The notes under the pieces are model-generated. The model worked only from the letters and a program-made list of their open reading frames with translations, ran no database searches and was not told where the DNA came from. A stretch of DNA of 64,000 nucleotides. Origin: Sabellastarte sp. h YS-2021 (taxonomy: Eukaryota; Annelida; Polychaeta; Sabellida; Sabellidae). The stretch covers positions 34,947,596-35,011,595 of the forward strand of contig OZ024935.1 of assembly GCA_964017235.1 (NCBI GenBank), written 5' to 3'. Both the position numbers and the translations under genes were made by a program. Shown piece after piece: positions 871 to 62,450 of the stretch. The stretch's first letter is position 1; every line of letters begins with the position of its first letter.

Positions 871-1268
871 ATCTAATGCTATTTTATCTGTCTACAGAGA
901 TATCTAATAATATTTTATCTCTCTTATATCTTTTTACTTGAATCTTGGTTGTTGCACCTTTGAGTGTCTTTTGATGTAGATTAAGCACAGTTAAAGTCAT
1001 ATTAGAATTCATTAACTGTTTTACTTTTGCAACTTCCCGTTGTAACAGATGGTATTGCATCAAGTGAGCCAAAGGTTTTGCCCCAACTCCACATAAAAGC
1101 ATGTATTGCCACATCTGTATGTATGGGTAATATTCAAAACATTCAAACCAGAATTCGACCATACAAATGAATATCAAAATGGGAGAAGTCTTAAAGCTTC
1201 ATAATTTTTAGTTAAATGAATTGTCCTCTTTTAATACTTAATCTTTACATGCAGTTTCTTTTTCTTAG
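871..1268. other. spacer between TGACCT array and exon 1
   Basis: AT-rich sequence with no convincing open frame. It ends in a pyrimidine-rich run and AG at 1267-1268, just before the ATG of exon 1. That could be a splice acceptor with upstream exons outside the window, or simply 5' leader. In the module at 39.7 kb the equivalent spacer between array and exon copy is only about 90 bases, so this stretch differs between copies. Confidence 0.4.
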
Positions 1269-1462
1269 ATGTTGTTTTCTCTACTTAAACATTATTTGGA
1301 CACTGACACTGCTCTGAAAGTATCCAAGTTTGTGTACTGTTTCACTACTTCTTTGTCTCATGGTGTTGAAAACTATTTCCCCAGGCTGTGGGGTACGGGC
1401 ATCTCTGATGCTATTTTCTCTTATGTGACTAGGAATCTGTACAAAGATCCAGCATTACACAA
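1269..1462 (+). CDS. exon 1 of candidate gene
   Basis: ATG follows AG at 1267-1268; the frame is open for 64 codons plus two bases. The donor is AA|GTATGA at 1463. If the donor is ignored the frame stops at 1470-1472. The same exon sequence recurs, decayed, at 39801-39956 (+), 40445-40579 (-), 42702-42832 (+), 45098-45233 (-) and 47324-47455 (+). The residues around SHGVENYFPRLWGTGISDA are the best preserved. This copy is the only one with an uninterrupted frame that also joins downstream exons, so it is the probable source. Confidence 0.5.
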
Positions 1463-20488: not shown

Positions 20489-21960
20489 TTAACGGCCAAT
20501 GTTCTGATTGGTTAAAAGTTACTGCAGGGGTTCCTCAAGGGTCTGTGTTGGGTCCGTTGCTTTTTCTTGTATTTATCAATGACATTACCTCGGTTGTTAA
20601 GTACTGTGACATTAGATTATTTGCCGATGACACCTGTCTTTTCCTAAAAGTAATAAATCCTGCAATAGCAACTACATGTATAAACAAAGATTTACTAAAC
20701 ATTGAAAAATGGGCCAATCAATGGTTGATAAAATTTAGTCCTTCAAAAACTGAGTCCTCAGTCATATCCTTAAAGCAAAACTCACGAAATAACTACAAAA
20801 AACTCGTCTTCTACAACACTCCCATTGCTAATGTACCCTCACACAAACATGTGGGGTTGTGGATTACACATAATCTAAAGTGGGACCACCACATTAATAA
20901 TTCTGTTCAAAAATGTTCTACTCTTCTTGGATTACTTAAACCATTAAAGTTCAAACTAAATAGACCAGTTCTTGAAAAGATTTTTTTGTCTTACATTAGG
21001 CCTATAATGGAATACGCAGACATAGTTTGGTCCGGAGCACCTTTCAGTCTACTTGCCAAGTTTGATCACGTAATTGTCGAAGCAATGAGACTAATAACAG
21101 GTGCTCCTGCAAGATCTAATATAGCTAACCTGTATAAAGAAACAGGTTGGCAGCTGTTATCAAAAAGACGTGAAATTCATATTTCAAAGATGATGTACAA
21201 AATTACAAATAACCTCGCTCCACAATATCTGTCTGATATTCTCCCACCTCAGATTAAAGAGATCCCCCCTAACCTGAAAAGATTAAGACAAGGTATTAAT
21301 TCAAGACTTTCAATTGGAGATTATCCGATTCCAATAGTGAGGACAAAATTGAGTGAGCTCTCCTTTCCTGTAGTAGGTTCCAAACTTTGGAACTCTCTCC
21401 CTACTAAAGTAAGAACTAAACCAACACTGGGATCTTTCTCAAAAGCACTAAACAAGATATTTCCAAGTGACTTACTTCAAAAAGAAACAAAAAAACTTTA
21501 TAATTTTGGGAGCCGATTGGTTAATATTCAGCATACCTGCTTACGGTTAGGTTGTAGTAAGCTTAATCACCATTTAAAAGAGAACCTGCATGTAACTGAT
21601 GACTCCTCTTGCGCCTGCAATTACCCAAATGAAGACACATCACACTTTTTCCTTTTTTGCCCCCTATATACAAATATCAGAGATGAACTGTTGCGATCAT
21701 TACCCCCGTCTGATAACTCAGTAATTCTTGACCAGATTCTCTTTGGAAACCAAAACTTATGTTTTGAGGATAATATTAAAATATTTGAAGCAGTCCATAG
21801 ATATATTGTCAAGTCTAAACGCTTTTGATTCTTTAATTGCCAGCAGTGACCCTTTTGTGCAGCCTCATCTTCACATCATCTGTAAATACTTCACCCTGCA
21901 AGAGGGCTTAATATAACTGTATCTTTTACGATTGTTGCCTAATTGCTAATAAAATATGTT
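20489..21960 (+). mobile_element. LINE-B, 5'-truncated non-LTR retrotransposon
   Basis: RT palm from motif B onward plus a full C-terminal region; everything upstream is missing. It is inserted in the TAA-rich field. The 5' junction has an imperfect fold-back (TTAA-CGG-CCAAT pairing with ATTGG-TTAA, 20489-20515). The 3' end is a short UTR ending AATAAAATATGTTTAAAT near 21945-21965. Confidence 0.8.
20491..21828 (+). CDS. LINE-B reverse transcriptase, C-terminal two thirds
   Basis: The frame is open for ~445 codons with TGA at 21826-21828. It opens with SDWLKVTAGVPQGSVLGPLL (RT motif B), then RLFADD (motif C, FADD in place of YADD). The thumb and connection contain WDHHINN and LWNSLPTKVR, the latter a common C-terminal LINE signature. 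A Cys/His knuckle follows, CACN then HFFLFC, near the end. This is Jockey/CR1-group-like; the clade is uncertain. The catalytic motif A is absent through truncation, so it cannot be active. Confidence 0.8.
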   Translation, partial: NGQCSDWLKVTAGVPQGSVLGPLLFLVFINDITSVVKYCDIRLFADDTCLFLKVINPAIATTCINKDLLNIEKWANQWLIKFSPSKTESSVISLKQNSRNNYKKLVFYNTPIANVPSHKHVGLWITHNLKWDHHINNSVQKCSTLLGLLKPLKFKLNRPVLEKIFLSYIRPIMEYADIVWSGAPFSLLAKFDHVIVEAMRLITGAPARSNIANLYKETGWQLLSKRREIHISKMMYKITNNLAPQYLSDILPPQIKEIPPNLKRLRQGINSRLSIGDYPIPIVRTKLSELSFPVVGSKLWNSLPTKVRTKPTLGSFSKALNKIFPSDLLQKETKKLYNFGSRLVNIQHTCLRLGCSKLNHHLKENLHVTDDSSCACNYPNEDTSHFFLFCPLYTNIRDELLRSLPPSDNSVILDQILFGNQNLCFEDNIKIFEAVHRYIVKSKRF

Positions 21961-22299
21961 TAAATCAAATTAAACTTAAAATAATATTTTATATACAATC
22001 TAATAGTATAAATATGTCAATAATATTACAAATAGAATTATATTTAATATACTATACTTAATAATAATAATAATATATCAGTTATAGAAAACTGTAATAC
22101 TACTACTGCAAATAATTATAATTATAAAAATAATAATAAATGGCTTAAGTACATAAATTTTATTAAATGTTAAATCACATTTTATATACAATTGAATGAT
22201 CTAAATGTATAAAAAATAGTAATAATAATAATATACTACGATTAATAATAATAATAATAAAATCTCAGTAATAAAAAACTATACGGCTGCTACTACTAC
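21961..22299. repeat. TAA/ATA-rich field, part 2
   Basis: Continues the phrases of 20090-20488, including (AAT)n and ACTACTACTACT runs. Confidence 0.7.
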
Positions 22300-38815: not shown

Positions 38816-39956
38816 AATTTTACCCCACAGCCCTACAGGGCTGTCGGGTATTGTTTTCACCCATGGTGTCCGGATGGGCGGACTGGTGGCGGGAAAAGTT
38901 TGTCCGGGCTGTATCTCAGAAAACGTAAGGTGTAGGAAGTTGATACTTGGTAGGGACATTGGCTGGGGGGTGTAGGTGTGCAATGTCATGGTCTGACCTT
39001 GATTTGACCTTGCCGCAGTGACCTTGAGTTTGAAAATCTTGTCCGGGCTATATCTCAGAAACTGTAAGGTGTAGGAAGTTGATACTTGGTAGAGACATTG
39101 GTTAGGGAGTGTAGGTGTGTAACATCATGGTGTGACCTTGATTTGACCTTTGACCTTGCTGTAGTGACCTTGACGTAATCAAATCTTGTCCTGGCTATAT
39201 CTCGAAAACTGTAAGGTGTAGGAAGTTGATAGTTGGTAGGGACATTGGTTAGGAGGTCTAGGTGTGCAACGTCATTTGTGTGACCTTGATTTGACCTTTG
39301 ACCTTGTCGTAGTGACCTTGACCTATAAAATCTTGTCCGGGCTATATCTTGGAAACCATAAGGTGTAGGAAGTTGATACCTGGTAGGGGCATTGGTAGGG
39401 GTTGTAGGTATGCAATGTCATGGTGTTACCTTCATTTGACCTTTGACCTTGCTGTAGTGACCTTGAGTTTGAAAATCTTGTTGGGCTATATCTCGGAAAG
39501 AGTGAGGTGTAGGAAGTTGATACTTGGCAGGGACATTGGTTGGGGGGTTGTAGGTATGCAGCGTCATGGTGTGACCTTGATTTGACCTTTGACCTTGCCG
39601 TAGTGAGCTTGACCTTTAAAATTTTGTCCAGATAATATCTCTGAAACCGTAAAGTGTAGGAAGTTGATAGTTGGTAGGGGCATTGGTTAGGGGTTGTAGG
39701 TGTGCATCATACTTTTTAGTTTACTGATTAATACTGTCATCTTGCTATTGAATTGTCTTGTTTTATACTTTTATCTTTACACACATTTTCCTTCTCTTAG
39801 ATGTTATTTTCACTACTTAAACAGCATTTTGACCTTAATATAACTGACACTGCTCTGAAAGTATCCCAATCTTTGTACTGTTTCACTACTTCTATCTCAT
39901 GGTATTGAAAACTAATATTTCCCCAAGCTGTGGGGTACGTACATCTCTGATGCTAT
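38816..39956 (+). mobile_element. hairpin-led TGACCT-array module with exon-1 copy (putative mobile element)
   Basis: It starts with CCCCACAGCCCTACAGGGCT, a stem (ACAGCCCT / AGGGCTGT) followed by CGGG. Next come TATTGTTTTCACCCATGGTG, six ~146-bp monomers (38880-39700), a short spacer, and a decayed copy of exon 1 (39801-39956). The paralogous site in unit 2 reads GCATAATTGTTCTTTTTTTT, joining the sequence before the hairpin directly to the sequence after the exon copy (44615-44640). Either the module inserted here or it was deleted precisely there. It has no coding capacity of its own, so mobility would need a partner. Confidence 0.6.
39801..39956 (+). pseudogene. decayed copy of exon 1 (a)
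   Basis: It keeps CTTAG|ATG, the reading MLFSLLKQHFDL, TALKVSQSLYCFTTS and the LWGT region. It carries an insertion after the first 12 codons and a shift near 39900 that brings in a stop. Confidence 0.7.
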
Positions 39957-40444: not shown

Positions 40445-40579
40445 TAAAACAGTGTCAGAGATATCAGTGCACCATAGGGAATAGAATTGGATGCCATTAG
40501 ATAAAAAGATGAAAAAGTACAAGCTAAGGAATCTTTTGGAACAGACAGTGTAAGTTATGTAAAGGAGTGGGACAAATAA
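40445..40579 (-). pseudogene. copy of exon 1 (b), antisense
   Basis: On the minus strand the frame is open over the exon and beyond: LFVPLLYITYT, then FLSNGIQFYSLWCTDISDTV, aligning with LFSLLKHYLDT and SLSHGVENYFPRLWGTGISDA of exon 1. It is the best-preserved copy after the original. Confidence 0.55.
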
Positions 40580-40839
40580 CACTCGGGTAAGTGAGCATTT
40601 ATGTAAAGACAAAGGATGAAAACAAGACCCTTTAATAGCAAGGTGACTACATAAAACTGTAACCTGATGAAGCTTTTAAATTTACTATTTGATCTATGTA
40701 GTAATTGAACTATAGCGGTCAATGAGGTTGTACAAATATATAAAAGTATATACAGTAACAGTTGCAGCAATACACTGAACTTTGTGATGCGAGAAATGTC
40801 CCTCAAATGTGGCTGTAGAAAAACAGTATGGCTGAGCCA

Positions 40840-41400
40840 AGGTCAAAGGTCACATCAAGGTCACACTATGATATTGCTTACCTCCACCACACTACCAATG
40901 TCCCTGCTAAGTATTAACTTCCTAGAGCTTACACACTTCAAGATACAGCCCAGACAAGATTTTAAAGGTCAGGGTCACTATGACAAGGTCAAAGATCAAA
41001 TCAGGGTTACACTGTGACGTTTCACAACTACACCCCAAAACCAATTTTCCTGTCAAGTATCAACCTCCCACAGCTAACAGTTTCCCACATAGGCTGCATA
41101 AGATTTTAAAGGTCAGTGACACTACAAGATCAAAGGCCAAGTCAAGGTCATGCCATGACTTTGCATACCTACACTCTCAAACCAATATACCAACCAACTA
41201 TCAACTTCCTACACTTTTCAGTTTCTAATATATAGCCCAGATTAGATTGTAAAGGTCAGGGTTATTATGGCAAGGTCTCAGGTTAATTCAAGGTCACACC
41301 ATGTTGTACTTTGAAACCCCCCTAACCAATGGCCCCACCAAGTATGAACTTGCTATACCTCACACTTTCTGAGATATAGCCCAGACAAAATTTTTCCCAC
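40840..41400 (-). repeat. TGACCT array in module b (reverse)
   Basis: Reads as AGGTCA on the plus strand: AAGGTCAAAGGTCACATCAA, TTCAAGATACAGCC, TTAAAGGTCAGGGTCACT. Four diverged monomers of ~145 bases. Confidence 0.85.
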
Positions 41401-41489
41401 TGGCCACCCACCTACCTGTTTGCCCAGCTAGACACCAAAATAAAAATAATGCCCACACAGCCTTTAAACGCTGTGGAGTGAAAAGGTAT

Positions 41490-41756
41490 CCACAGAAACT
41501 TTCTCTAAAATAGAGGTGTAAGGAAAGCCACTGCTTAGAGAAGGTTCTTGTAGAAAAATCACTGCAAGATAAGGTATTAAAAATCCACTGCCAGCTTAGG
41601 TCAATGTTGTTTTAGGATTGTAGTTAAGGAAAAGCCACTGCTTAGATAAGGCGCTTGTAGAAAGTCACTGATAAATAAGGTATTAAAAATCCACTGCCAG
41701 GTTAAGGCCACTATGTTTTAGGTTTATAGTTAAATTTTGAGGGAAAGTTTCTGTGG
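41490..41756. mobile_element. small TIR element at fold-back centre, 267 bp
   Basis: CCACAGAAACTTTC at 41490-41503 and GAAAGTTTCTGTGG at 41743-41756 are exact inverses. The interior holds two ~110-bp direct repeats (GCCACTGCTTAG, TATTAAAAATCCACTGCCAG). A duplicate is at 46143-46409, and a fragment AAAATCCACTGCCAG occurs near 38014. Confidence 0.7.
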
Positions 41757-41869
41757 TTGGCTTTACAAGTTACTACTTTTTGGTTTGTCTATTGATATGT
41801 TGGTTCTGTTCAGCTTACGGGTTAATAATATTCACCATTGGCAACCAGCAGGGCAGGCAGGTGGGTTGA

Positions 41870-42440
41870 TGGCCAGTGGGAAAAGTTTTGTCTGGGCTGT
41901 ATCTCAGAAATTGTGAGGTATAGGAAGTTCATACTTGGTGGGGACATAAGTTAGTGGGTTTCAAAGTACAACATGGTGTGAACTTGATTTAACCTGAGAC
42001 TTTGTCATAGTAACCCTGACCTTTACAATCTAATCTGGGCTATATCTCAGAAACTGAAATGTATGGCAAGTTGATAGTTGGTTGGGATATTGGTTTGAGA
42101 GAGTTGGTATGCAAAGGTATGGTTTGACCTTAACTTGTCCTTTGATCTTGTAGTGTCACTGACCTTTAAAATCTTATGCAGTCTATATCTGGGATACTGT
42201 TAGCTGTGGGAGGTTGATACTTGACAGGGTAATCGGTTTGGGGGTGTAGTTGTGGAACGTCACAGTGTAACCCTGATTTGATCTTTCACCTTGCCATAGT
42301 GACCCTGACCTTTAAAATCTTGTCCTGGCTATATCTTGAAAAATATAAGGTCTAGGAAGTTGATGCTTAGCAGAGACATTGATAGTGTGGTGGAGATAAG
42401 CATATTATGATGTGATCTTGATGTGACCTTTGTCCTTGGC
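41870..42440 (+). repeat. TGACCT array in module c
   Basis: Four diverged monomers with TATCTCAGAAA, GGAAGTT-ATACTTGG and TTGACCTTAACTTG-type blocks; more degraded than the 38.9-kb array. Confidence 0.8.
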
Positions 42441-42701
42441 TCAGCCATACTGTTTTTCTACAGCCACATTTTGAGGGAAATTTCTCCTATCACAAAGTTC
42501 AGTGTATTGCTGCAACTGTTACTGTATGTACTTTTATCCATTTGTACAACGTCATTGACAGTTGTGCTTCAATTACTACATAAACAGGTTAGTAAATTTT
42601 AAAGCTTTTGAACTTTTAGTTTACAGTTTAATGGAGTCATCTTGCCATTAAAGTGTCATGTTTTGATACTTTGTCTTTATATAAATGCTCACTTCCTTAA
42701 G

Positions 42702-42832
42702 TGTTGTTTGTCCCACACCTTACATAACTTGCACTGTCTATTCCAAAAGACTCTTTATCTTGTACCTTTTCATCTCTTCTTCACTCAGTGGTATGGAATG
42801 CTGTTTCCCCCAGCCTGTGGTGCATGGGCATA
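42702..42832 (+). pseudogene. decayed copy of exon 1 (c)
   Basis: In one frame it reads SLLHSVVWNAVSPSLWCMGI, aligning with SLSHGVENYFPRLWGTGI. An upstream stop breaks the first part. Confidence 0.5.
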
Positions 42833-43364: not shown

Positions 43365-43945
43365 AGTCTCATGAATAGGTTGTTAGACTGGGTTTACTGG
43401 TCTACTTTACACACACATCGCTTGACATAGGAGTATAACTTGCTACACTGACACTAGTTGTGAATGAAATCCTGCTAGAGCCTGGTCTCATGGATAGAGT
43501 GTTAGACTGGGTTTACTGGTCTACTTTACACACACATCACTTGACATAGGAGTATAAATTGCTACACAGACACTAGTTTTGAATGAAATCCTGCTACAGC
43601 CTGGTCTCATGGATAGGGTGTTAGACTGGGTTTGGTGGTTTACTTTACACACACATCACTTGCCACAGGAGTTTGAATTGTTACTTAACCTAGTTGTGAA
43701 TGAAATCCTGCTGGAAACTGGTCTCATGGATAGATGTTAGACTGAGTTTGGTGGTCAACTTTGCACATGTTTCTTAACATAGGAGTATGAATTGCTACAC
43801 TGACACTAGTGGTAAATGAAAAGCTGCTAGAACCTGGTCTCATGGATAGGGTGTAAGACTGGGTTTGGTGGTCTACACACATCACTTGATTTACAAGTAT
43901 GAATCACTACTCACACTAGTTGTGAATGAAAACCTGCTAGAACCT
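43365..43945 (+). repeat. 117-bp tandem array, ~5 units (unit 1)
   Basis: GGTCTCATGGATAGGGTGTT recurs near 43600, 43717 and 43833 with a 116-119 base period. Each unit has TACTTTACACACACATCACT, ACATAGGAGTAT and GAATGAAATCCTGCTAGA. Confidence 0.9.
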
Positions 43946-45097
43946 TGCATCCTGTTCAGGAGAGTGGAACAGTTGTATTGTGCTGTTGGAAACTGAAGTA
44001 AGCACCAGATATACTGACCACCAGACACTAAGAATAACTTGACCTGTTAAAAGGGTAAGTATTATCTTATTCTGTTTATTATTTTGCACATTTGTTGTAC
44101 CTTACTAGTATTGCATTAATCTGTTGGTTAAATACAAACTTCTTGTAGTTTATTATGTTTTATATGTTAAGAATAGAACCTCGAGTTTTTCCAACTGGGA
44201 GGTCAGACATGGGGACACAAGTTATTTTAACAGATCTGTTGTTCTAGTTTCTTGCCTCATCAAATCTAGCACTCTTGTAATACAGATATGTTTGTTACAC
44301 TGGCCTTATTTTAGTTTCTTTAGGAGAACATTTTTTTTATCAATTTATATAGTAATGTACTCTTTAATATGCTGGCTTTTATATTAAGACACATTTTGAG
44401 ACAGAAATTTCTGTCTGGTTATCATATATGTCCTGCCACATACAAGTGCATTATGATTGTTATGTCTTAAATCTAAATAAGCTGTATCCTAAAGTGCTAC
44501 ATACTTCAGTTGTTATTGTCAATTAGTTATGGGAGAGTGGTGTAGTAACACTTTTGCTACCTAATTCACTATGTTTTCTAATCAGGCAAGTCACTTTTTC
44601 CTTGGTAAAACTGCATAATTGTTCTTTTTTTTCTAATTTCAGATTAGCCAAAGAAAGAGTGTTGTGGAAACTGCATTTTGACAAGCTGAAAGGGAAGTGT
44701 TGCTCTAATATTTTTTAATAATTTTATACAAAAGAAACTCTTATTTTATAGTCAAATGCGTTTTCTCAACAATAGTTGTTTTGGTGGTTCTAACTGAATC
44801 GGTGAATCATGGTTGATGGGTAACAAAAATAGTACCATGAACAAGCATTATCATGTGGCCTATTTGTGTGATGATGGACTACTTTTAACTTGTTAGGCTG
44901 GCTGAGGCTGATACAAAACCTTTTGTTTGTACGTGTACATTGGAGAAGGTGTTGAAAATGGCCAAAACAAATAGCCATTGTCTGGAAATTTTAAATATTT
45001 ATGATAAAAATGTATTTCAAGAGTAAAATATTTCAGATTATTTTTATGGTAGCTATTAACAGCCAAGTGACATGCAATAAAAAATAATGCCATTCAA

Positions 45098-45233
45098 TTA
45101 AAACAGTGTCAGAGATATCAGTGCACCATAGGGAATAGAATTGGATGCCATTAGATAAAAAGATGAAAAAGTACAAGATAAGGAATCTTTTGGAACAGAC
45201 AGTGTAAGTTATGTAAAGGAGTGGGACAAATAA
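45098..45233 (-). pseudogene. copy of exon 1 (d), antisense
   Basis: LFVPLLYITYT and NGIQFYSLWCTDISDTV as in copy b. The frame ends in EWHYFLLHVTW because of a deletion relative to copy b. Confidence 0.5.
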
Positions 45234-46142
45234 CACTCGGGTAAGTGAGCATTTATGTAAAGACAAAGGATGAAAACAAGACCCTTTAATAGCAAGGTGA
45301 CTACATAAAACTGTAACCTGATGAAGCTTTAAAATTTACTATTTGATCTATGTAGTAATTGAACTATAGCAGTCATTGAGGTTGTACAAATATATAAAAG
45401 TATATGCAGTAACAGTTGCAGCAATACATAGAGCTTTGTGATGCGAGAAATGTCCCTCAAATGTGGCTGTAGAAAAACAGTATGGCTGAGCCAAGGTCAA
45501 AGGTCACATCAAGGTCACACCATGATATTGCTTACCTCCACCACACTACCAATGTCCCTGCTAAGTATTAACTTCCTAGAGCTTACACACTTCAAGATAC
45601 AGCCCGGACAAGATTTTAAAGGTCAGGGTCACTATGACAAGGTCAAAGATCAAATCAGGGTTACACTGTGACATTTCACAACTACACCCCAAAACCAATT
45701 TTCCTGTCAAGTATCAACCTCCCACAGCTAACAGTTTCCCACATAGGCTGCATAAGATTTTAAAGGTCAGTGACACTACAAGATCAAAGGCCAAGTCAAG
45801 GTCATGCCATGACTTTGCATACCTACACTCTCAAACCAATATCCCAACCAACTATCAACTTCCTACACTTTTCAGTTTCTGATATATAGCCCAGATTAGA
45901 TTGTAAAGGCCAGGGTTATTATGGCAAGGTCTCAGGTTAATTCAAGGTCACACCATGTTGTACTTTGAAACCCCCTAACCAATGGCCCCACCAAGTATGA
46001 ACTTGCTATACCTCACAATTTCTGAGATATAGCCCAGACAAAATTTTTCCCACTGGCCACCCACCTACCTGTCTGCCCAGCTAGACACCAAAATAAAAAT
46101 AATGCCCACACAGCCTTTAAAAGCTGTGGAGTGAAAAGGTAT

Positions 46143-46409
46143 CCACAGAAACTTTCTCTAAAATAGAGGTGTAAGGAAAGCCACTGCTTAGATAAGGTTC
46201 CTGTAGAAAAATCACTGCAAGATAAGGTATTAAAAATCCACTGCCAGCTTAGGTCACTGTTATTTTAGGATTGTAGTTAAGGAAAAGCCACTGCTTAGAC
46301 AAGGCGCTTGTAGAAAGTCACTGATAAATAAGGTATTAAAAATCCACTGCCAGGTTAAGGCCACTATGTTTTAGGTTAATTGTTAAATTTTGACGGAAAG
46401 TTTCTGTGG
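46143..46409. mobile_element. small TIR element at fold-back centre, unit 2
   Basis: The same 14-base TIRs CCACAGAAACTTTC / GAAAGTTTCTGTGG as in unit 1, with the same doubled interior. Confidence 0.7.
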
Positions 46410-47323
46410 TTGGCTTTACAAGTTACTACTTTTTGGTTTGTCTATTGATATGTTGGTTCTGTTCAACTTACGGGTTGATAATATTCACCATTGGCAACCA
46501 GCAGGGCAGGCGGGTGGGTTGATGGCCAGTAGGAAAAGTTTTGTCTGGGCTGTATCTCAGAAATTGTGAGGTATAGGAAGTTCATACTTGGTGGGGATAT
46601 TGGTTAGGGGGTTTCAATGTACAACATGGTGTGACCTTGATTTAACCTGAGACCTTGCCATAGTAAACCTGACCTTTACAATCTAATCTGGGCTATATCT
46701 CAGAAACTGAAATGTGTAGCAAGTTGATAGTTGGTCAGGATATTGGCTTGAGAGTGTAGGTATGCAAAGTCATGGCATGACCTTGACTTGGCCTTTGATC
46801 TTGTAGTTTCATTGATCTTTAAAATCTTATGCAGCCTATATCTGGGAAACTGTTAGCTGTGGGAGACTGGTACTTGACGGGAAAATCAGTTTGGGGTGTA
46901 GTTGTGAAATGTCACAGTGTAACCCTGATTTGATCTTTGGCCTTGCCATAGTGACCCTGACCTTTAAAATCTTGTCCAGGCTATATCTTGAAAAGTGTAA
47001 GGTCTAGAAAGTTGATGCTTAGAGGGGACATTGGTAGTGTGGTGAAGTTAAGAATATCATGGTGTGACCTTGATGTGACCTTTGACCTTGGCTCAGCCAT
47101 ACTGTTTTTCTACAGCTACATACGAGAGACATTGCTGCAACTGTTACTGTATGTACTTTTATCCATTTGTACAACCTCGTTGATAGCTATACTTAATTAC
47201 CACATAAATCAGGTAATAAATTTTAAAGCTTTAGAACTTTTAGTTTACAGTTTAATGGAGTCATCTTGCCATTTAAGTGTCATGTTTTGATACTTTGTCT
47301 TTATATAAATGCTCACTTCCCAC

Positions 47324-47455
47324 AGTTTGTCCCACACCTTACATAACTTGCACTGTCTATTCCAAAAGACTCCTTATCTTGTACCTTTTCATCTCTTCTT
47401 TACTCAATGGTATCTAATGCTATTTCCCCCAGGCTGTGGTGCATGGGCATCTCTG
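47324..47455 (+). pseudogene. decayed copy of exon 1 (e)
   Basis: One frame reads SLLYSMVSNAISPRLWCMGI then SATF, aligning with exon 1 through GISDAIF. DIRS-1 lies ~55 bases downstream. Confidence 0.5.
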
Positions 47456-48369
47456 CCACTTTTACCGAATAGACTGAACTTTGACAAAGTCAATGTACCA
47501 GATAAAGTTGTATTTTTATTGCACTACAATAGCTTACCATGTGGGACTGAATGCTAACTCGAGAGGCCACAGGACTCCAGCCAACGACCAAGAAAAATGG
47601 ATGTTTGGATTTGGCAGAGTCAGTGGTTTAGTATGTACCATAGCAGTGTCGTTTGGAAATTCATCGTTCTTCTCTTGTTGGCCGCCATCTTAAAAAGCTT
47701 TTGAAATAAATTTACAATATTTTACTGTTTTCTCGAGATATACTTGTCTTTGGATACTGAAACTACAGCAATTTCCTTATTTATATATATACAATCATAT
47801 GTTTGTGACAAATCACAGAACAAATAAGTATATCTTATATATTTTACAATTTAATCCACTTCCGGGTCACGTTGTGAGGAAAGAGTTCAACATCACGACT
47901 CGTACATGTAGCTTATATACAGGATCAGTACCTGTCAAAATACAATAAAATATTTTGAGGGTTTATCCCCCATCTGCTACATTATTGGACCATTTAAAGG
48001 GTTTAAATTTCAATAAACTACAAAATGCGCATGTTTGATGTGGGAGTTCCTTTCCGGAAACTTCCGATTCGTCTCCGTTTTGAAAGAAGCATTAGACGAC
48101 CCACTCGTGTATATATATTATATACAGGACCTAAATAATATAATCCCTATCTGCTGAAAAGACGTATATTTATTATGTTACTTAATGCACTCTTTCAGGA
48201 AGTGAAGTTCTTTTGCATTATCCTCCTAATTTGCTTCAGTGGGGTTCCCCTTTTAACTTATTCTCTGCACTAGTTCAGAGTTTCCAAGCCTAATCCTGGC
48301 TAAGTCAACCTTTGACTTTGGAAGGTAGGACGACCAGATCTCCCTTCCAATCTGATGCCTGGTTAATTT

Positions 48370-48620: not shown

Positions 48621-48839
48621 TCTAAAGCCTCAACAGGCTGCTGCTGAACATGACCAGCAACAGGGAGGTAGATATGTCTGACCTCCCTTCACAGCATACA
48701 GAAGTAGACCTTTGGCACGTTCTTTTTTTTCCTGACTCAGGAAAACTTTGCCTAGGTCCTCTTCTACCAGAGATGGCTCAAACTTCAGCATTTGATCCTA
48801 CCGCTCAAGTGAAAACATGTTTTGACTGACTTAGATGTT

Positions 48840-49560
48840 TGATGTCGCAATTGGGTTGCTTGCCTCAACGGAAAAAATGGTCCGGAGGGACTCCTTCACA
48901 TGAGGCTCTTTCAGTTTCACCTCAAGGAGCACTGGAGATTTGCTCAGTTGTTGGACAGCCTCTTTCCTTGGACAGAAACCATTTCAGCACAGCTAGAATG
49001 GTGGCAGAATCCCACAAACATGATGAAAGTCACAGACCTTCATCCCAAAGACCTCAAACGAAGCCTGGGGCACTCACATAGAGCACACCTCTACAAAGGG
49101 TCTGGTCAGTCTGGGGAAAAAGGCTACACATAAATGTTCTAGAGCTGAAGGCGTTTTCTCTGGGCCTTCAAAGGTTCAAGGTCCAGTGTCAAAACCAAAC
49201 CGTGTTGGTTGCTACAGACAACTCAACAATAGTAGCCTACATATTAAACAAGAAGGAACCAACTCGGTGGAGATGTGCACTCTCCTGTGGAAGATCATGA
49301 CTGGGTGCCATCATTTCCAGATAACCTTAAAAGCCAGACATATTCCAGGGTGTCTGAATGTGATGGCCGACCTGTCCAGGTCGAACCAAGTCCAATCAAC
49401 AGAATGGTTACTGCATCTGCAGGTAGTCAAACAGATCTGTCTCAAGTGGTTCACTCCTCAGGTAGATCTTTTGCCACTCGCCTGAACCACAAACTTCCAC
49501 TGTACGCGTCTCCAGTCCCAGAACAAATGCTTGGGACACACATGCTCTGAACATAAACTA
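48840..49560 (+). pseudogene. DIRS-1 RT C-terminus / RNase H, broken
   Basis: Fragments in several frames: MRLFQFHLKEHWRFAQLLDS, then the VLVATDNSTIVAYI-type RNase H strand with a frame change, then RHIPGCLNVMADLSRSNQVQ. These match the equivalent, better-preserved stretch of DIRS-2 at 55120-55820. The segment holding the first RNase H aspartate has been deleted (TDLHPKDLKR runs on into AHLYKG). Confidence 0.75.
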
Positions 49561-49649
49561 GTCGGGTCTCACTGCTTATGCCTACCCTCCCACAGCTCTC
49601 TTTCACAGGGTGATCCAAAATCAGGTAATCCAGTTGCCTAATCATTGTA

Positions 49650-50410
49650 ATAGCCCCAGGCTGGCCAGGGATGCCCTGGTTTTGGGATCTAGTACAGCTC
49701 GCAACAGAGATCCCACTTCATCTTCCAGTCTCTCCACTTTCACAGGGATTGTCTCAAAAGTTCCAGGAATCTTCCTAAATGAAACCTTTCTGTTGTTCTC
49801 AATGAGCTCACAAAAGCACCCTTTGAACCTACGAAAGACACAGAGCTCAAACATATTACTCTCAAAACTGCTTTTTTGCTAGCTTTGGGCACCGGCAAGC
49901 GCCGCAGCGAAATCCATGCCTGGGCTGCAAACAAAGTATCTAACCTAGGCCAATGGGAAAAGGTTACTTTGTTCCCCTCTTGAGATTTCATTGCCAGAAA
50001 CCAACTAGCAAGAGAAGGTTCTCATAGTGTCTTTCCAGTGACTATTACTGCTCTAACTACCATTGTAGATAGACAATTCAAGGAAGACAGGACCTTGTGT
50101 CCGGTACCAGCCCTGAGGTACTATTTTGATCGAACCAAAGACCTAAGAGGGTCTCGATCCCTTCTTTTCATCGCCTTTAAGGAAGGACCTACTTCAGATA
50201 TCAGACCCGCTACACTCTCTTCCTGGCTAAAACAAACTATCCTACTTTGTTATAAACTAGCAGATCAACAAGCCTTGGACCTGGTCAAAGTCAAAGCACA
50301 TGACATTAGGGCCTTTGCGGCCTCTAAGCCCTTTTTACAGTGGGTATCGGTAGACCAATCATGCAAGTGTGTCACTGGACAGCACGCATTTACAAATTTT
50401 ACATAAAAGA
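49650..50410 (+). pseudogene. DIRS-1 tyrosine recombinase, broken
   Basis: Retains GKRRSEIHAW (box I R-x-x-E), REGSHSVF-like strands, VDRQFKEDRTLCPV, and KAHDIRAFAAS (the H-x-x-R motif). Defects: stops near 49769 and 49981, loss of the N-terminal half, and a one-base deletion in the T run just before the catalytic Tyr (ACAAATTTTACAT, where DIRS-2 has ACAAATTTTTACCT). No active enzyme. Confidence 0.8.
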
Positions 50411-51357
50411 CCTTACCCGGTTAGACAACAACAACAATATGTATCTGGGACCAGTAGTAGCGGCGCCACAAGTCCTAGACCCTTCCCTCTGCATACTCAT
50501 CTTCAGGAAGAAAAGAAGGGGGGCACACCCACTGCAGCCAAGTCTTCAGGAGTCTCTCTCAGGGTCTAGGTATTGGTTACCTCTCCAGATGTTTACGGTA
50601 AGGTCTCTTATATTTTTAACTGTATAATCAGTGTACCATAATCTTATATTTAGGGTGGCAAAATTGATGAGATTCAAGCCTAGGGCTGTATTTTATAGCA
50701 TTGATGCCCTTAGGGGCTACTATCTTGAGTGAGCATGGCTGCACTCTCTTCTCTCAGATAGTACCCATACTGTCATTCATTAAATTTCGGTTTTTGACTT
50801 CTTACTGACCCGACTTTAGAACTGGGGCTCTGTAACTGGGACTTAGACTCGTAATTTGGCAATACTTTGCTATATTTTTTAATTCTAAATTCAAGAAAAA
50901 TGGACAAAATTGTTCCAGTATCAGCTGTAATCCCGCCACCGGGCAGTTGAATTCAGGATTCAATCCCACATGGTAAGCTATTGTAGTGCAATCAAATTGA
51001 AAATTTTAATTATTTAAATGTAGCTTTTATAAGCTACAAGCTTACCATGTGGGATTAAAGAAAGACCCAACCTACCTCCCCGCTGTATTTCAGCTGAGGG
51101 GGTACGGGCTAAATTTACCACGAGAGAAGGACAAATTGCCAAACGACACTGCTGTGGTACATACTAAACCACAGACTCTGCCAAATCCAAACATCCATTT
51201 TTCTTGGTCGTTGGCTGGAGTCCTGCAGCCTTCCGAGTTAGCATTCAGTCCCACATGGTAAGCTTGTAGCTTATAAAAGCTACATTTAAATAATTAAAAT
51301 TTTCAAGTTTATTGGTATCATAGTCTAGTACTACATCAAATTCTCAATTATTTTCAG

Positions 51358-51837: not shown

Positions 51838-52310
51838 CTTGTGTAGTCTCATGGATAGGCTGTTAGACTGGGTTTGGTGGTCTACTTTACACACGCGTCA
51901 CTTGACATAGGAGTATAAATTGCTACACAGACACTAGGTGTGAATGAAATCCTGCTAGAGCCTGGTCTCATGGATAGATCTTAGATTGGGTTTGCTGGTT
52001 TACTTTACACACACATCACTTGACTTAGGAGTATGAATTGCTACTGACACTACTTCTGAATGAAAACCTGCTAGAAACTGATCCCATGGATAGATGTTAG
52101 ATTGGGTTTGGTGATCTACTTTATACACATCTCTTAACATAGGAGTATGAATGGCCACACTGAAACAAGTTTTGAATGAAAACCTGCTAGAAACTGGTCC
52201 CATGGATATATGTTAGATTGGGTTTGGTGGTCTACTTTACACACACACCTCTTGACATAGGAGTATGAATATGCTACTCACACTAGTTGTGAATGAAAAC
52301 CTGCTAGAAC
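51838..52310 (+). repeat. 117-bp tandem array, ~4 units (unit 2)
   Basis: TCTCATGGATAG or TCCCATGGATAG recurs near 51853, 51960, 52077 and 52193. Same family as 43365-43945. Confidence 0.9.
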
Positions 52311-52338
52311 CTGTATTGTGCCATTAGAAACTGAAGTA

Positions 52339-52789
52339 AGCACCAGATATACTGACTACCAGACACTAAGAATAACTTCACTTGTTAAAAGGGTAAGTAC
52401 AATCTTATCCTGTTTATTTTTGTACATTTGTGGTACCCTCATGGTACTGCATTTATTTTTGTTTACTTCTTGTAGTTTATGAAGGTTTGTATCTCAAGAA
52501 TAGAGCCTCGAGTTTTAATTCAACTGGGTGGCCAGATTCATATCTGACACACGCTATTTTAACAGATCTGTGGTTCTAGTTTCTTGCCACACCGAATCTA
52601 GCACACTTGTAATATAGCCATTATCTTACACTGGCCTTATTTTAGTTTCTTTATGAGAAAATGTTATCAGTTTATTTAGTGATGTGCTCTTGAAATCTGC
52701 TGTCTTTTGATACTTTTTGAGACAAAAATTTTTGTCTGGTGATCTTATATGTTCTGCCATATGCAAGTGCATTATGAAAGTTTTTATTG
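52339..52789. repeat. start of segmental duplication unit 3 (partial)
   Basis: AGCACCAGATATACTGACTA through TTTTTGTCTGGTGATCTTATAT match 44004-44430 and 38227-38640. It then reaches a hairpin leader as in unit 1. Confidence 0.7.
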
Positions 52790-53215
52790 CCCCACAGCCC
52801 TTGAGGGCTGTCGGGGTATTGTTTTCACCAATGGTATCCAGATGGGCAGGTGGGTGGCCAGCAGGAAAAAGTTTGTCCAGGCTGTATCTCAAACTGTAAG
52901 GTGTAGGAAATTGATACTTGGTAGGGACATTGGTTGGGGGGTGTAGACATGCAACCTCATGGTTTTCACCTTTGACTTTGCCGTAAAGACCTTGGATTTA
53001 AAAATCTTGCCCAGGCTATATCTCGGAAACCATAAGGTGTAGGAAGTAGATACTTAGTAGGGACATTGGTTGGGGGTGGTAAATGTGCAACGTTATGTGA
53101 CCTTGATTTGACCATTGACCTTGCAGTAGTTACCTTGACCTATTAAATCTTGTCCGGGTTATACCGTAAGGTGTAGTATGTTGATACTTGGTATTAACAT
53201 TGGTTATAGCTTTCT
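52790..53215 (+). repeat. hairpin leader and truncated TGACCT array, unit 3
   Basis: CCCCACAGCCCTTGAGGGCT starts a stem as at 38824, followed by TATTGTTTTCACCAATGG and about 2.5 monomers. The array breaks off near 53215, where the 155-bp family begins; no exon-1 copy follows. Confidence 0.8.
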
Positions 53216-54479: not shown

Positions 54480-55240
54480 CTCGCCAAAGGTGGAGGCTAA
54501 TGATAGACCTAAGCAGGCTTCACACCTTCCTACTTGTAGAAAGGTTCAAATGGAAACACCAGAGCCCATCAGGGTGTCTCTGATTCCAGGGGAATGGGTG
54601 GCGTCGATAAACTTATCGGATGCCTACCTTCACAAGCCCATCCATCCAACCTCAAGAAAGTACCTAAGGTTTTGCCACAGGTCACCGGTATACCAGGTCA
54701 CCTCCCATCTCTTCAGGCTGGCCTCGGCCACACAGGTCTTTACTATGATTGTAAAGATGTGAAGCTGATGGCCCCTTATAAGGGGAATCAGACTTCACCG
54801 ATTCCTGGTCGACTGGCTGATCAGAGCTCAGTCTTAGGAAGAAGCACAAGTGAACACTCTGACAGTGGTAGACCTGACCCAGTCCCTGGGGTGGATAATA
54901 AATCAGTAGAAATCTGAACTGAAACCTTCTCAGATGTTCTTGTTTGTGGGCTACAAGTACCATCTAAATTCAACTCTTGTAAAACCCACTCAAGAGAGAT
55001 GGCTCAAATTTCAGGATTTGATCTTACGACTCAAGTGAACTCATGTTTTGACTGCAAGATGTTTGATGTCGCCAATTGGGTTGCTTTCTCAATGGAGAAA
55101 ATGGTCCCGGAGGGACGCCTTCACATGAGGCCCTTTCAGTTTCTTCTCAAGGAGCACTGGAGATATCCTCAGTCATTGGACAGCCTCCTTCCTTAGACAG
55201 ACACCTTTTCAACACACCTAGAGTGGTGGCAGAATCCCAA
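54480..55240 (+). pseudogene. DIRS-2 reverse transcriptase, degenerate
   Basis: Frames together give RT fingers and palm: IRVSLIPGEWVASINLSDAY (motif A, with Asn where the first Asp of I-D-L-S-D is expected), then RKYLRFCHRSPVYQ, then in another frame RFLVDWLIRAQS at about 54799-54833. There the Y-x-D-D box has become FLVD, with Val for the first Asp. Stops follow. Loss of catalytic Asp residues makes this RT inactive. Confidence 0.75.
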
Positions 55241-55244
55241 AAAT

Positions 55245-55820
55245 GTGATGAAAGGTTCCGACCTCCATCCCAAAGACCACAGTATAAAACTTTTTATAGA
55301 TGCCTCTAACGAAGGCTGGGGTGCTCACTTAGGGCTAGCCTCTACAAAGGGTCTGTGGTCAGAAAAGGAAAAATCGCTACACATAAATGTTCTAGAGTTG
55401 AAGGCGGTTTCTCTGGTCCTTCAAAGTTTCAAGGACCAGTGTCAAAACCAAACAGTGTTGGTTGCAACAGATAACTCAATAGTGGTGGCCTACATAAACA
55501 AACAAGGAGGAACTCACTCAGCAGAGATGTGCGCTCTCCTGTGGAAGATCATGACCTGGTGCCATCATTCCCAGAGAACTTTGAAAACCAGACACATTCC
55601 AGGGTGTCTGAATGTGATGGCCATCCTTCTGTCCAGGTTGAACCAGGTGCAGTCAACTGAATGGTCACTGCATCCACAGGTGTTCAAACAGATCTGTCAG
55701 AAGTGGTTCACCCCTCATGTAGATCTATTTGCCACTCATCTGAACCACAAACTTCCTCTGTACATGTCTCCAGTCCCAGACCCAAATGCTTGGGACATAG
55801 ATGCTCTATACATAAACTAG
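55245..55820 (+). CDS. DIRS-2 RNase H domain, open frame
   Basis: A 191-codon frame. LFIDASNEGWGAHLG carries the first catalytic Asp, HINVLELKAV the Glu, and VLVATDNSIVVAYIN the second Asp: the D-E-D order of retroelement RNase H. Further on come RHIPGCLNVM and WFTPHVDLFATHLNHKLPL, typical of the DIRS RH C-terminus. It is the surviving piece of the RT-RH polyprotein; the upstream RT is broken and the start codon is internal. Confidence 0.8.
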   Translation: MMKGSDLHPKDHSIKLFIDASNEGWGAHLGLASTKGLWSEKEKSLHINVLELKAVSLVLQSFKDQCQNQTVLVATDNSIVVAYINKQGGTHSAEMCALLWKIMTWCHHSQRTLKTRHIPGCLNVMAILLSRLNQVQSTEWSLHPQVFKQICQKWFTPHVDLFATHLNHKLPLYMSPVPDPNAWDIDALYIN

Positions 55821-55979
55821 ACGGGTCTCACTGCCTGTGCTTACCCTCCGTCAGCTGTCCTTCACAAGGGGATTCCAAAAATCAGGAAATACAACTGCCT
55901 GATCATTGTAATAGCCCCAGGATGGCCAGGGATGCCCTGGTTTTGGGACCTATTGCAGCTCTCAACAGAGATCCTACTC

Positions 55980-57064
55980 CAACTACCAGTGTCAACAACT
56001 CTTCTGAAACAGTCTCCCAATTATGTGTTTCTCAGCAATCCACAGCATCTCAGCCTCCATGCCTGGTGTCTAGGAGTGGACAACTCCAAGAACAAGGCTT
56101 CTCTGTGGAGGTGGCAGTGAGAATTGCTGCCCATCAGAGGTTATCAACAAAAACCATCTATAAATCAAAGTGGGCCCTATTTGAGAAATGGTGCAGAGAA
56201 AATGCGGTGGATTTCTCCACTCCCTCTGTGAAACACGTCTCAGAATTTTTTATGTACCTGTACCAAGATCTGAACAGGCGCCCCTCAACCATTGATGGTT
56301 ACAGGATGGCCATTGTTGACACTTTAGGCCCAGTGGGGCACCATATTTCAAAAAGCTCAGACCTTCACAGGTTTCTCTCCAGTTTTCACAGGGATCGTTC
56401 CAAAAGTTCCAGGAATCTTTCTAAGTGAAACCTTTCTGTTGTACTCAATGAGCTCACAAACGCACCTTTTGAGCCTATGAAAGACACAGACCTCAAACAT
56501 CTTACTCTTACAACTGCTTTCTTGCTAGCTTTGGCCTCCGGCAAGCGCTGCAGCAAAATCCATGCCTGGGTTGCAAACATAGTATCAAATCTAGGCCAAT
56601 GGGAAAAGGTAGGCTTGTTCCTTTCTTCTGACTTTATAGCCAAAAACCAACTAACAAGAGAAGGTTCTCAAAGTGTGTCTTCGGTGACTATCCCTGCTTT
56701 GCCTACCATTGTGGACAGACAATTCAAAGAAGACTGGACCCTGTGTCCAGTACATGCCTGTAGGTACTATTTGCATCAAACCAAAGACCTAAGAGGGTCT
56801 CAATCCCTACTCTTTATTTCCTTCAAGAAAGGACATACCTCAGTTATCAGACCTGCTACTCTCTCTTTCTTGGTTAAAACAAACTATCCTACTTTGTTAC
56901 AAACAAGCAGACCAACAGTCCAAGTTAAAGTGCATTACATTAGGGTCTTTGCAACCTTTAAGGTCTTTTATGCTTGGTTTTTGGTAGACCAAATCTTGCA
57001 ACCTTGTCACTGGAAAGCTCACAACACATTTACAAATTTTTACCTGAAAGACCTAACTTGGTGA
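55980..57064 (+). pseudogene. DIRS-2 tyrosine recombinase, one in-frame stop
   Basis: The frame runs from the end of the RH region through VRIAAHQRLSTKTIYKSKWA and VKHVSEFFMYLYQDLNRRPS (core-binding N-terminal domain). A single TGA at 56426-56428 interrupts it, after which the same frame resumes NLSVVLNELTNAPFEP. Then follow GKRCSKIHAW (box I Arg kept, Glu replaced by Lys), VHYIRVFATF (H-x-x-R) and NTFTNFYLKDL (catalytic Tyr kept). It overlaps the end of the RH frame, as is usual in DIRS elements. Confidence 0.85.
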
Positions 57065-57938
57065 GACAATGACAACAATATGTATCTGTGTCCAGTAGTA
57101 GTGGCTCAACAAGTCCTAGACTAGTCATCATCGGAAGGAAAACAAGGGGGGCACATCCGCTGCAGCCAAATCTTCAGGAGTCTAAATCCCAGGGTCTAGG
57201 TATACGACTACCTTCTCAGGATGTTGTTAAGGTCTTTAATCTTATTTCAGTACAGTATTTAACATGTATAGTGTATTACATACCTATTCTGGTGATCCTT
57301 AAAACTCTGATTATAAGGATGGCAAGTTCGTGAGATTTTTCAAGCCAAGGGCTTGTTTTCATTCGTGGAGAAGCCCCTTAGGGCTATACTTCCTACTTCA
57401 AACCAGACATGCAGACAGTTTCAGTTCTGTCATTCATTCAAGTATTCTGGAATATGGCTTCTTGCAGGACTCAGACTGGTCTTTTCAAACACATACATTC
57501 TAATTTAATTATTTCAAAATCCAAGAAAAATTAACTAATTCCTCCAGTCTCAGCTGTAATCCCTCCACTGAGCGGTTGGATTCAGCATTCATTTCCATGT
57601 GGTAAGCTATTATAGTGCAATAAAATTAAAAATATAAATTACTTAAATGTAGCTTTGATAAGCTACCAGCTTACCATGTGGAACTGAAGAGTCCCACCCG
57701 GCCTGCCCACTGTATTACAACTGAGGGGGTACAATCTAAATTTTCAATGAGAAAGAAGGAGACTTCAACAGAAGTACACTATGGGGTTCACCTACATCAT
57801 TGGGAATTTGGTGAACACTAAACATCTATTTTTCTTGGACGTTGGCCAGATTTGTTGCGGCCTCCCAAGATAGCATTCAGTTCCACATGGTAAGCTTGTA
57901 GCTTATGAAAGCTACATTTAAGTAATTAAAATTTTCAA

Positions 57939-58620: not shown

Positions 58621-59984
58621 TGTTCTTGATTATCTGGACATTCTCATCACCCCCACCTCCCAATACATAATGCCTCTCTTGAACAATTTAAGTGTCCTAA
58701 TTTTTTTCAAGCAGGCTGATGTCACCCAATCCTCACAAAAATCATCTAAGAAGTTTTGAAAGACTATAGGCCTGTCTCTAATCTAAACTTTATTTTAAAG
58801 ATACTGAAAGAGTAGTAGCAGTCCAAATACAAACTGACCTTGATTAAGCTGGCCTTATGATTGCCTTCCAATCAGCTTATAGAAAACACCATTCTACTGA
58901 AAGTGCCCTCCTTAATATTTACAATGATATTCTTCTCAATATGGCCAAAGGGTATGTCTCAGCCCTTACCCATCTAGATCTCTCCACTGCGTTTGATACC
59001 ATTGACCACACCATTCTCCTGGACAGACTTAATGTTTACTATGGAAGCCATGAACTGTCACTCGGCTGGTTCAAATCACACTTGTCGGGAAGAACACATT
59101 CGGTCAAGGTAGATAACACACTCCCACATCCTGCCATGCTCCAGTATGGGGTCCCCACAGCTCCGTCCTTGGTCCAATTCTTTGTTCTCTCTACACCGAC
59201 CCAATCAGCTCAATCATTCACTCTGTTTGATGCAAAGTTTTGTTTCACCAATCACATAAATTCTGTTATCAAATCTTGTTTTATTAGCTTCAGGGACGAT
59301 CGTATCATTAGCTTTCTTTCCATTGATACATCAGTGGTGATTGCAAATGCTCTGGTAAGCAGTTGTTTGGATTATTGCAATTCTCTATTTCATAGTTTTG
59401 TCATCCCATAATGCTACCAGGCTCCAATACGTTCAAAACTCTCTTGCATGGTTTGTCACTGGTGCTTCTAAATTCACTCACATCACATCCAGATTGAAGG
59501 CACTTCATTGGCTACCTATCAGACAACGAATTAACTTTAAAACCCTAGTTGTTGTGTACTAGTGCCTCACTACTGGCCAGCCTAAGTATTTTGCACAATA
59601 TCTCTCCTTGTATAAATCAGCCATGAACACAAGATGCTCTAACCCAAAAAAATTGTTCCTCCAGGTTCCTCACTATTGTGCTTCCATCCATAAATGAAAG
59701 GTCCACTTCAGCAACAGTACTATTTCTCATATGATGCCCCAAAGTTATGGAATGATCTTCCACATGTTATACGCAGTGCTCTAATCTCTCATGTTTCAAA
59801 AGTCGACTAAAAAACTTCTTATTTCAGAAATCATTTCCACCTTAGTTTGTAACTACTAAACACCGGATTGCCTCCCTGGGTGCGACTTGGAATATGTCTT
59901 GATGATTGATGCCTAATGAACTGGATGGTGTGCCTTAGAATCCGTAGGTACGGAGATTAGCACTTGGACTGCTGATTGATTGAT
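58621..59984 (+). mobile_element. LINE-D, CR1/L2-like, 5'-truncated and degenerate
   Basis: Begins in RT fingers (FFKQADVT, then KDYRPVSNLNF-like residues across frames). It passes through a readable palm frame at 58857-59411 and thumb-type blocks (LKALHWLPIRQRINFKTLVV near 59490-59560), and ends LKNFLFQKSFPP followed by TAG near 59840. The 3' end has (TGAT)n near 59970-59984. Inserted in or beside the 155-bp array. Confidence 0.8.
58857..59411 (+). pseudogene. LINE-D reverse transcriptase fragment
   Basis: A frame with FQSAYRKHHSTESALLNIYN and LDLSTAFDTIDHTILLDRL (motif A) and LQYGVPTAP (motif B, with frame damage). The region that should hold YADD has been deleted, so LDYCNSLF of the thumb follows soon after. 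Stops and shifts bracket it. Confidence 0.8.
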
Positions 59985-60700: not shown

Positions 60701-62450
60701 TCATGAAATCATGCACTAAATCACTTGTAACTTGAAAAGTGTTGCATTTAGAGCATTTTGTTAAAATATGTTATTCAGATACTTTTTTCATAGCTACAAC
60801 ATGGTGAGTAACTTGGGTGTCTGTCTCAATAGCTAAGTGAGTAATAGCTACTTTTGGGCTTTTCAGTAACTTCCATCGTGAGTAAAATCACTTGTAACTT
60901 GAAAACTATTGCATTTAGAGTATTTTGTTTCAATATGTTATTCAGCTATTTTTGGGTCAGCTATAACATAGTAAAATTTCAGACCTGTAGCTCATGGCAT
61001 AGCTGAGTAATAGCTACTTTTAGGTTATCACTGTTGAGTAAATTGCTTATAACTTCAAAAGTATTACATTTAGAGTATTTTGTTTCAATATGTTATTCAC
61101 CTATTTCGGAGTCAGCTATAACATAGTGAAGTTCCAGACCTGTGGCTCATTGCATAGCTGAGTAATAGCTACTTTGAAGTTCACACTGTTGAGTAAATCA
61201 GTTGTAATTGGAAAACTATTGCATTTACAGAAATTTGTGTAAATATGTTATTCAGCTATTTTTGGGTCAGCTATAAAATAGTAAAATTTCAGACCTGTAG
61301 CTCATGGCATAGCTGAGTAATAGCTACTTTTAGGTTATCACTGTTGAGTAAATTGCTTATAACTTCAAAAGTATTACATTTAGAGTATTTTGTTTCAATA
61401 TGTTATTCACCTATTTCGGAGTCAGCTATAACATAGTGAAGTTCCAGACCTGTGGCTCATTGCATAGCTGAGTAATAGCTACTTTGAAGTTCACACTGTT
61501 GAGTAAATCAGTTGTAATTGGAAAACTATTGCATTTACAGAAATTTGTGTAAATATGTTATTCAGCTACTTTTGGGTCAGCTATAACATAGTAAAATTTC
61601 AGACCTGTAGCTCATGGCATAGCTGAGTAATAGCTACTTTTAGGTTATCACTGTTGAGTAAATTGCTTATAACTTCAAAAGTATTACATTTAGAGTATTT
61701 TGTTTCAATATGTTATTCACCTATTTCGGAGTCAGCTATAACATAGTGAAGTTCCAGACCTGTGGCTCATTGCATAGCTGAGTAATAGCTACTTTGAAGT
61801 TCACACTGTTGAGTAAATCAGTTGTAATTGGAAAACTATTGCATTTACAGAAATTTGTGTAAATATGTTATTGAGCTACTTTTGGGTCAGCTATAACATA
61901 GTGAAATTACAGACCTGTAGCTCATGGCACAACTGAGCAATAGCTATTTTCAGGTACTGACTGTTGAGTAAATGACTTGTAACTTGAAAAATATTGCATT
62001 TGGAGTATTTTGTTAAAATATGTTGTTCACCTACTTTTGGGTCAGCTATAACGTCGTGAAATTACAGACTTATGGCTCATGGCATAGCTGAGCAATAGCT
62101 ATTTTCAGGTTCTCACTATTGAGTAAATCAGTTGTAACTTGAAAACTATTGCATTTACAGTATTTTGCTTAAATATGTTGTTCACCTAATTTTGGGTCAG
62201 CTATAACATAGAAAAAATTCAGACATGTAGCTCATTGCATAGCTGAGTAATAGCTACTTTGAGGTTATCACTGTTGAGTAAATCAGTTATAACGTGAAAA
62301 CTATTACATTTACAGTATTTTGTTTAAATATGTTATTCACATAATTTTTGGTCAGCTATAACAGAGTGAAATTGCAGACCTTTATGTCATGGCATAGCTT
62401 ACCCCAATATCTACTTTCAGATTCTCACTGTTGAGTAAATCATTGTATCC
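60701..62450 (+). repeat. 155-bp array with 310-bp higher-order repeat
   Basis: About eleven monomers. From 61021 to ~61860 two alternating monomer types form a 310-bp unit repeated almost without change; TAGGTTATCACTGTTGAGTA recurs at 61021, 61331 and 61641. Outside this block the monomers are diverged. Confidence 0.95.

Follow-up and report, generated by a model that had tools for sequence, protein, structure and literature searches.

Non-autonomous Helentrons (HINEs) that carry a satellite-like array are already known from oysters, mites, and flies. In the accessible part of PMC7492417, Cg_HINE of the oyster Crassostrea gigas is described as having a 5′ subTIR of 11-12 bp with an IR, a degenerate microsatellite, a satellite-like tandem array in the range of 140-180 bp, a 3′ subTIR, a palindrome, and a TT or T-rich target without duplication. 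The same features are present in a block of about 1.14 kb at positions 38818-39956 (forward strand) of the window, the 64,000-nucleotide stretch of Sabellastarte DNA analyzed here. Pearl-type bivalve elements also contain central repeats, as does the window family. It is highly probable from the arrangement of its parts that the block represents one insertion of a HINE with a central satellite-like array, because the parts that define the class in PMC4067079 and PMC7492417 are all present, save a proven autonomous partner. The family of the block is a very abundant member of this kind of element. The original prediction held that the block does not follow a TIR, LTR, or SINE plan; a known plan, that of HINEs as given in PMC4067079 and PMC7492417, fits it.

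The complete copy is located in unit 1 of an array of paralogous units. Its components are, in the 5′ to 3′ direction, a T-run, a 5′ subterminal repeat with its inverted partner, a degenerate microsatellite, the array, the right module, a 3′ subterminal repeat, a palindrome, and the T-rich target. The hairpin leader, TGACCT array, and tail predicted at 38816-39956 are present in this order, with the termini refined to about 38818 (TTTTACCCC...) and 39956 (...GATGCTATTTT). The 5′ hairpin (38822-38848, on the forward strand, as are all parts of the block) was recognized from the listed 5′ ends and by folding, and is formed by the 5′ subterminal repeat (T)ACCCCACAGC and the inverted partner GGGCTGTcGGG. 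The single-strand DNA fold of the hairpin has z of -5.09 in the window copy and -4.19 in the typed family consensus. The degenerate GGGC/GGGT-type microsatellite of the left module (38860-38892), delimited by eye from the listing of 5′ ends, differs among copies. The TGACCT-rich satellite-like array with a period of about 146-147 bp (38900-39706) contains 5.6 copies of a 147-bp unit according to TRF; six 146-bp monomers had been proposed originally. Alignment of sampled copies placed the right module of about 250 bp (39707-39956) at their 3′ ends, and that of the window copy is 7.1% off the consensus of 62 tails. This tail had been interpreted as a piece of exon 1; however, the module is present at the 3′ ends of 20 out of 20 copies fetched by place and belongs to the element itself. 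The tail shows no sign of exon capture, and a captured exon was rejected as its source. When TA is included, the 3′ subterminal repeat AGCTGTGGGG (39926-39935) matches the 5′ repeat exactly over 11 nt in inverted orientation. The 3′ palindrome (39941-39953, consensus GCATCtctGATGC) retains four of its five pairs in the window copy and is followed by TATTTT.

Comparison of the block sequence to the genome identified at least 48 matching stretches on 11 contigs, including the block itself, and the others are 85-93% identical to it (best 40 of 16,835 candidates). Among the same best 40 candidates, at least four other matches span positions 3-1141 without interruption, and the rest are partial, as expected if the length of the array varies. 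The 3′ end could be aligned in all 20 fetched places and the upright 5′ end in 15 of them; the 5′ ends of L010 and L025 were found additionally when the copies were later cut out. The end strings of the family are ACCCCACAGCCC and GGCTGTGGGGTACGGGCATCTCTGATGCTA, and the ends common to the copies are, with point differences, TTTTT-ACCCCACAGCCCTTAAGGGCTGTCGGGGTATTG on the 5′ side and CCCCAGGCTGTGGGGTACGGGCATCTCTGATGCTA-TTTT on the 3′ side. A sample of 27 complete copies was assembled from the fetched places, the loci of the 3′-end search, and the window; L001-L008 and L050 were omitted because they overlap other loci. The copies are 732-1,726 bp long, with a mean of 1,211 bp including the T-runs. 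All of them share both ends, as had been predicted for a mobile unit with fixed ends, and differ in their flanks. The 200-bp flanks contain one weak 27-bp similarity on the 5′ side, and no similarity was found when the 200-bp flanks on the 3′ side were compared.

The 5′ T-run is five nucleotides long in 14 of the 27 copies, two in seven, and four in two; the lengths zero, six, seven, and eight each occur once. The two-T runs are variants such as TTTTGTTACC. At the 3′ end, at least four T are present in 26 of the 27 copies, and the aligned empty sites are T-rich, which characterizes the target. When the T were trimmed and a duplication of the target beyond T was sought, a 3-nt match of the flanks was found in one of the 27 copies and none was longer. 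The 5′ subterminal repeat TACCCCACAGCC directly follows the 5′ T-run and precedes GGGCTGTcGGGG, with imperfections in some copies. Its exact inverted match between the 5′ and 3′ sides is 12 nt long in 12 copies, 11 nt in two, including the window copy, and 6-9 nt in 13. The 3′ subterminal repeat is positioned about 22 nt from the end of the element, and the palindrome GCATCtctGATGC is present in the family.

The search for short patterns covered the 1.786-Gb genome and used each pattern read backwards as a control. The 34-nt 3′ end was found at 22,175 places (11,129 + 11,046) and the 38-nt 5′ end at 14,689 places (7,321 + 7,368), both with up to three mismatches, and the 26-nt array core at 105,628 places (52,927 + 52,701) with up to two mismatches; the backwards controls gave zero in each case, and the 3′ end is thus much more frequent than expected by chance. 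At the mean length of 1,211 bp, 22,175 copies correspond to roughly 1.5% of the genome, which is an estimate from a small sample. The fixed ends, empty sites, and high copy number on both strands are in accordance with the non-autonomous mobile unit that had been proposed. Monomers in the same orientation are located upstream of the 3′ end in 28 of 30 loci, which are the first 30 exact 3′ ends on contig C1 (0.9-4.1 Mb); this sample is biased towards well-kept 3′ ends, and its loci L050 and L051 overlap. In L033 and L035, monomers were sought within 1.5 kb upstream of the 3′ end and none were found. The tails differ from their own consensus by a median of 7.8% and a minimum of 2.5% (59 tails, among which are those of all four arms of the window's fold-backs). 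A further HINE copy (1-1418, forward strand) is cut by the start of the window, with its array at 1-859 and the right module and 3′ end extending to about 1418.

The window also contains other repeats. Open frames matching the RVT_1 reverse transcriptase are located at 9090-10889, 20545-21828, and 58857-59411, with the match at 20545-21828 below the cut-off. Two retroelement copies, 80-83% alike, occupy 48769-50617 and 54995-57246, and the latter has an RNase H-like match just below the cut-off. The former, which looks DIRS-like, lies between inverted repeats (TTACCATGTGGGA) at about 47535 and 50965.

The joined flanks of all 27 complete copies were searched against the genome in three batches of nine, and the 40 best candidates were scored per search. 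Junction-spanning empty sites were found for at least five of the 27 copies (L054, L012, L041, L029, and the window copy), which is a lower bound, because in two batches the list was taken up by repeats. Among the 40 best candidates per search, no countable empty site was found for the other 22 copies, and none was counted in the third batch. Within the best 40 candidates scored, L054 has at least five empty places, L012 at least two, and L041 many, its site being a repeat. Many empty sites were also obtained for L029, which is inserted in a satellite of about 150 bp. At 60717-62447, the window contains a satellite array with units of about 155 bp, to which pieces of the L029 satellite flank are 66-79% alike; a related satellite carries a HINE insertion. 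In L018, the 3′ flank is a repeat, and the matches enter the 5′ flank by no more than 22 bp. The alignments of the empty sites show clean insertion at the T-run. In L012, L029, L041, and L054, the 3′ T-run of the filled copy equals the length of that in at least one empty site. The 5′ part of the L041 alignment was misplaced by the program, and TAGTGC-TTT(C/T)T-CTATTATTAGC is unbroken in L068 and L069. About five or more T are present in the empty sites, and about five flank either side of the filled copies. A duplication of the target limited to T would therefore look the same as T brought in with the element. The alignment of flanks, which the original prediction had proposed as a check, provided both shared 5′ and 3′ termini and empty paralogous sites.

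The empty site predicted in unit 2 (44615-44640, forward strand), aligned with units 1 and 4, contains a run of eight T, at which the flanks meet directly at about 44619-44628; the 3′ T-run of the window copy has seven. Unit 4, which is located just beyond the end of the window (C11:35011784-35011908), is empty and 89% identical across the junction. The predicted recurrence of the hairpin and array at 52790 in unit 3 corresponds to a 3′-truncated HINE, formed by a leader and array at 52787-53206 (forward strand), which is positioned about 165 bp closer to the start of its unit than the copy in unit 1 and is read as an independent insertion. Units 2 and 3 each have a 116-119-bp tandem repeat close to their start (43366-43945 and 51846-52313). 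A simple deletion in unit 2, which the original prediction had named as a refuting outcome, would mean that the module was once present in all units and disappeared from unit 2. Such a deletion would account for the single clean block by which units 1 and 2 differ at this place; however, it is extremely unlikely, because parsimony contradicts it: unit 4 is also empty, the copy in unit 3 is at a different site, and thousands of other copies have the same ends as the block. Because units 2 and 4 are empty and the HINE of unit 3 is at another site, the sequences indicate that the window copy is an insertion in unit 1 and not a deletion in unit 2.

Unit 1 also contains a fold-back composed of two facing, old HINE-like arms (40448-42831), which are 87.3% alike over 935 bp in inverted orientation. 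The same fold-back is present in unit 2 (45102-47463) and is 91.7% identical to that of unit 1 over 2.9 kb. The tails of the fold-backs are 25-28% off the family consensus, with 28% in unit 1, and the arms are about 72-78% identical to the array of the window element, which is below their likeness to each other. The order of array and exon that had been claimed for both fold-backs thus stands for the recurrence of array and tail, but not for the identity of the tail as an exon. Three close copies of the central spacer were found in the genome, and every one belongs to the unit array of the window; the other matches of the spacer are 69-90% identical over about 40-203 bp, including one at 87% that is a further part of unit 4. 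The fold-backs probably originated by in-place inverted duplication of one old, diverged HINE-like copy, and the duplication may have predated that of the units, because the arms are 87% alike and the units 91.7%. The fold-back was rejected as a mobile form, because all three close copies of its spacer are in the unit array. A fold-back or TIR (MITE-like) element moving by cut-and-paste would explain the inverted repeats close to both ends of the block and the fold-backs that adjoin it. Furthermore, Pearl, a similar bivalve element, was first called a MITE and later re-categorized as a non-autonomous Helentron, as related in the accessible part of PMC7492417. Nevertheless, an element of this type is very unlikely here, because the repeats are subterminal, the 3′ end has an additional palindrome, the non-T duplication is limited to the single 3-nt match, and the copies of the fold-back center are all local. 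From the initial suggestion of a Helentron-like or foldback mechanism, the Helentron-like class is the best-fitting one, and the fold-back part is not upheld. Canonical Helitrons have 5′-TC and CTRR-3′ ends and insert between A and T. They resemble the block in the rolling-circle class, the 3′ hairpin, and in that no duplication was seen. However, the ends of the block are TTTTT-ACCCC and GATGCTA-TTTT and its target is a T-run, which leaves a canonical Helitron hardly any credibility.

We infer from the copies described above that the HINE family moves. An autonomous Helentron would supply Rep/helicase/endonuclease in trans, and the protein would recognize the hairpin on the 5′ side and, on the 3′ side, the subterminal repeat with the palindrome. 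One strand would be copied by rolling-circle replication and then pasted into a T-run. The array would be carried along, with its length altered by slippage or recombination, and its mobility would scatter satellite monomers across chromosomes. Unit 1 would have gained its HINE copy after the units duplicated.

The Helitron_like_N profile matches 24 places in the genome, referred to as Rep loci. One of them (L059, C3:168673000-168682999) contains a Helentron Rep/helicase frame that is open and has an endonuclease-like part at its end. The frame has 1,755 residues in the fetched stretch, with DUF6570, Helitron_like_N, and PIF1 above the cut-offs and Exo_endo_phos at the C-terminus just below it (22.0 vs 24.5 bits). 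From the 98.6-99.7% identity of copies of the frame over 0.95-2.3 kb, this family, whose ends differ from those of the HINE, seems to have spread recently. In stretches chosen downstream of 13 of the 24 Rep loci (about 3 kb at 12 loci and 10 kb at one), neither the HINE 3′ end nor an autonomous element with the ends of the HINE was found. This is a weak negative, because a true 3′ end was recognizable in no more than three copies, all of one family (L059, L072, and L076), and the L074 stretch was still coding. HINE matches in the Rep stretches are limited to pieces of the leader and array in L073 and of the array in L082. Near its 3′ end, the L059/L072/L076 family shares GGGCAYCTCTGA with the HINE in 11 of 12 nt (0 of 2000 shuffles), in a comparison that was chosen post hoc. 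The autonomous partner of Cg_HINE has likewise not been identified in the oyster, according to the accessible part of PMC7492417.

The monomer profile was calculated from 286 full monomers out of 357 matches in 49 sampled loci and the window. The consensus contains five TGACCT (AGGTCA) half-sites within about 44 bp, with direct-repeat spacings of 5, 1, 8, and 0, which we assume to have the meaning of nuclear-receptor direct repeats. The stretch TGACCTTTGACCTTG of the monomer is also part of a PPAR-gamma decoy oligonucleotide, as given in the accessible part of PMC9775059. Among the 286 monomers, the half-sites have no additional conservation relative to other non-CpG positions (95.7% vs 94.2%, p = 0.34), and the difference from all other positions is 95.7% vs 92.6% (p = 0.11). 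Selection on the half-sites is unsupported, because they are conserved like the other non-CpG positions, and their repetition could be explained by simple internal duplication. It is unlikely that the element is a vehicle by which nuclear-receptor half-sites, in more than 100,000 dense clusters, spread through the genome, with copies near genes serving as ready-made hormone-receptor enhancers or decoys. The CpG positions are 75% conserved, in contrast to 94% for the other non-CpG, non-half-site positions (n = 286), and this strong decay suggests germ-line methylation of the satellite copies.

The puzzling block can be settled as a satellite-carrying relative of Helentrons, in which one short monomer appears to owe its tens of thousands of dispersed copies to a transposon and not to growth of one satellite block. 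The fixed ends enable easy annotation of the family. Compared by description, the monomer is 166-170 bp long in four oyster cluster consensuses (accessible part of PMC7492417) and 146 bp and TGACCT-rich here. Tetris of Drosophila virilis (accessible part of PMC4079207) also contains tandem repeats inside a mobile element that feed satellites; it is a fold-back transposon, whereas the fold-backs of the window look like local duplications. The likeness of HINE-Mo, DINE-1, and Pearl to the block is one of plan. In the accessible part of PMC4067079, HINE-Mo of a mite has palindromic 12-15-bp subTIRs, a feature comparable to that of the window family, and the 3′ subTIR of mite HINEs is 38-60 bp from the end, whereas that of the window family is about 22 nt from it. 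According to the same source, HINE-Mo and DINE-1 of Drosophila have a 3′ palindrome, a T-rich target, and paralogous empty sites like the block, and tandem repeats in some of their copies, whereas here the array accompanies 28 of the 30 sampled 3′ ends.
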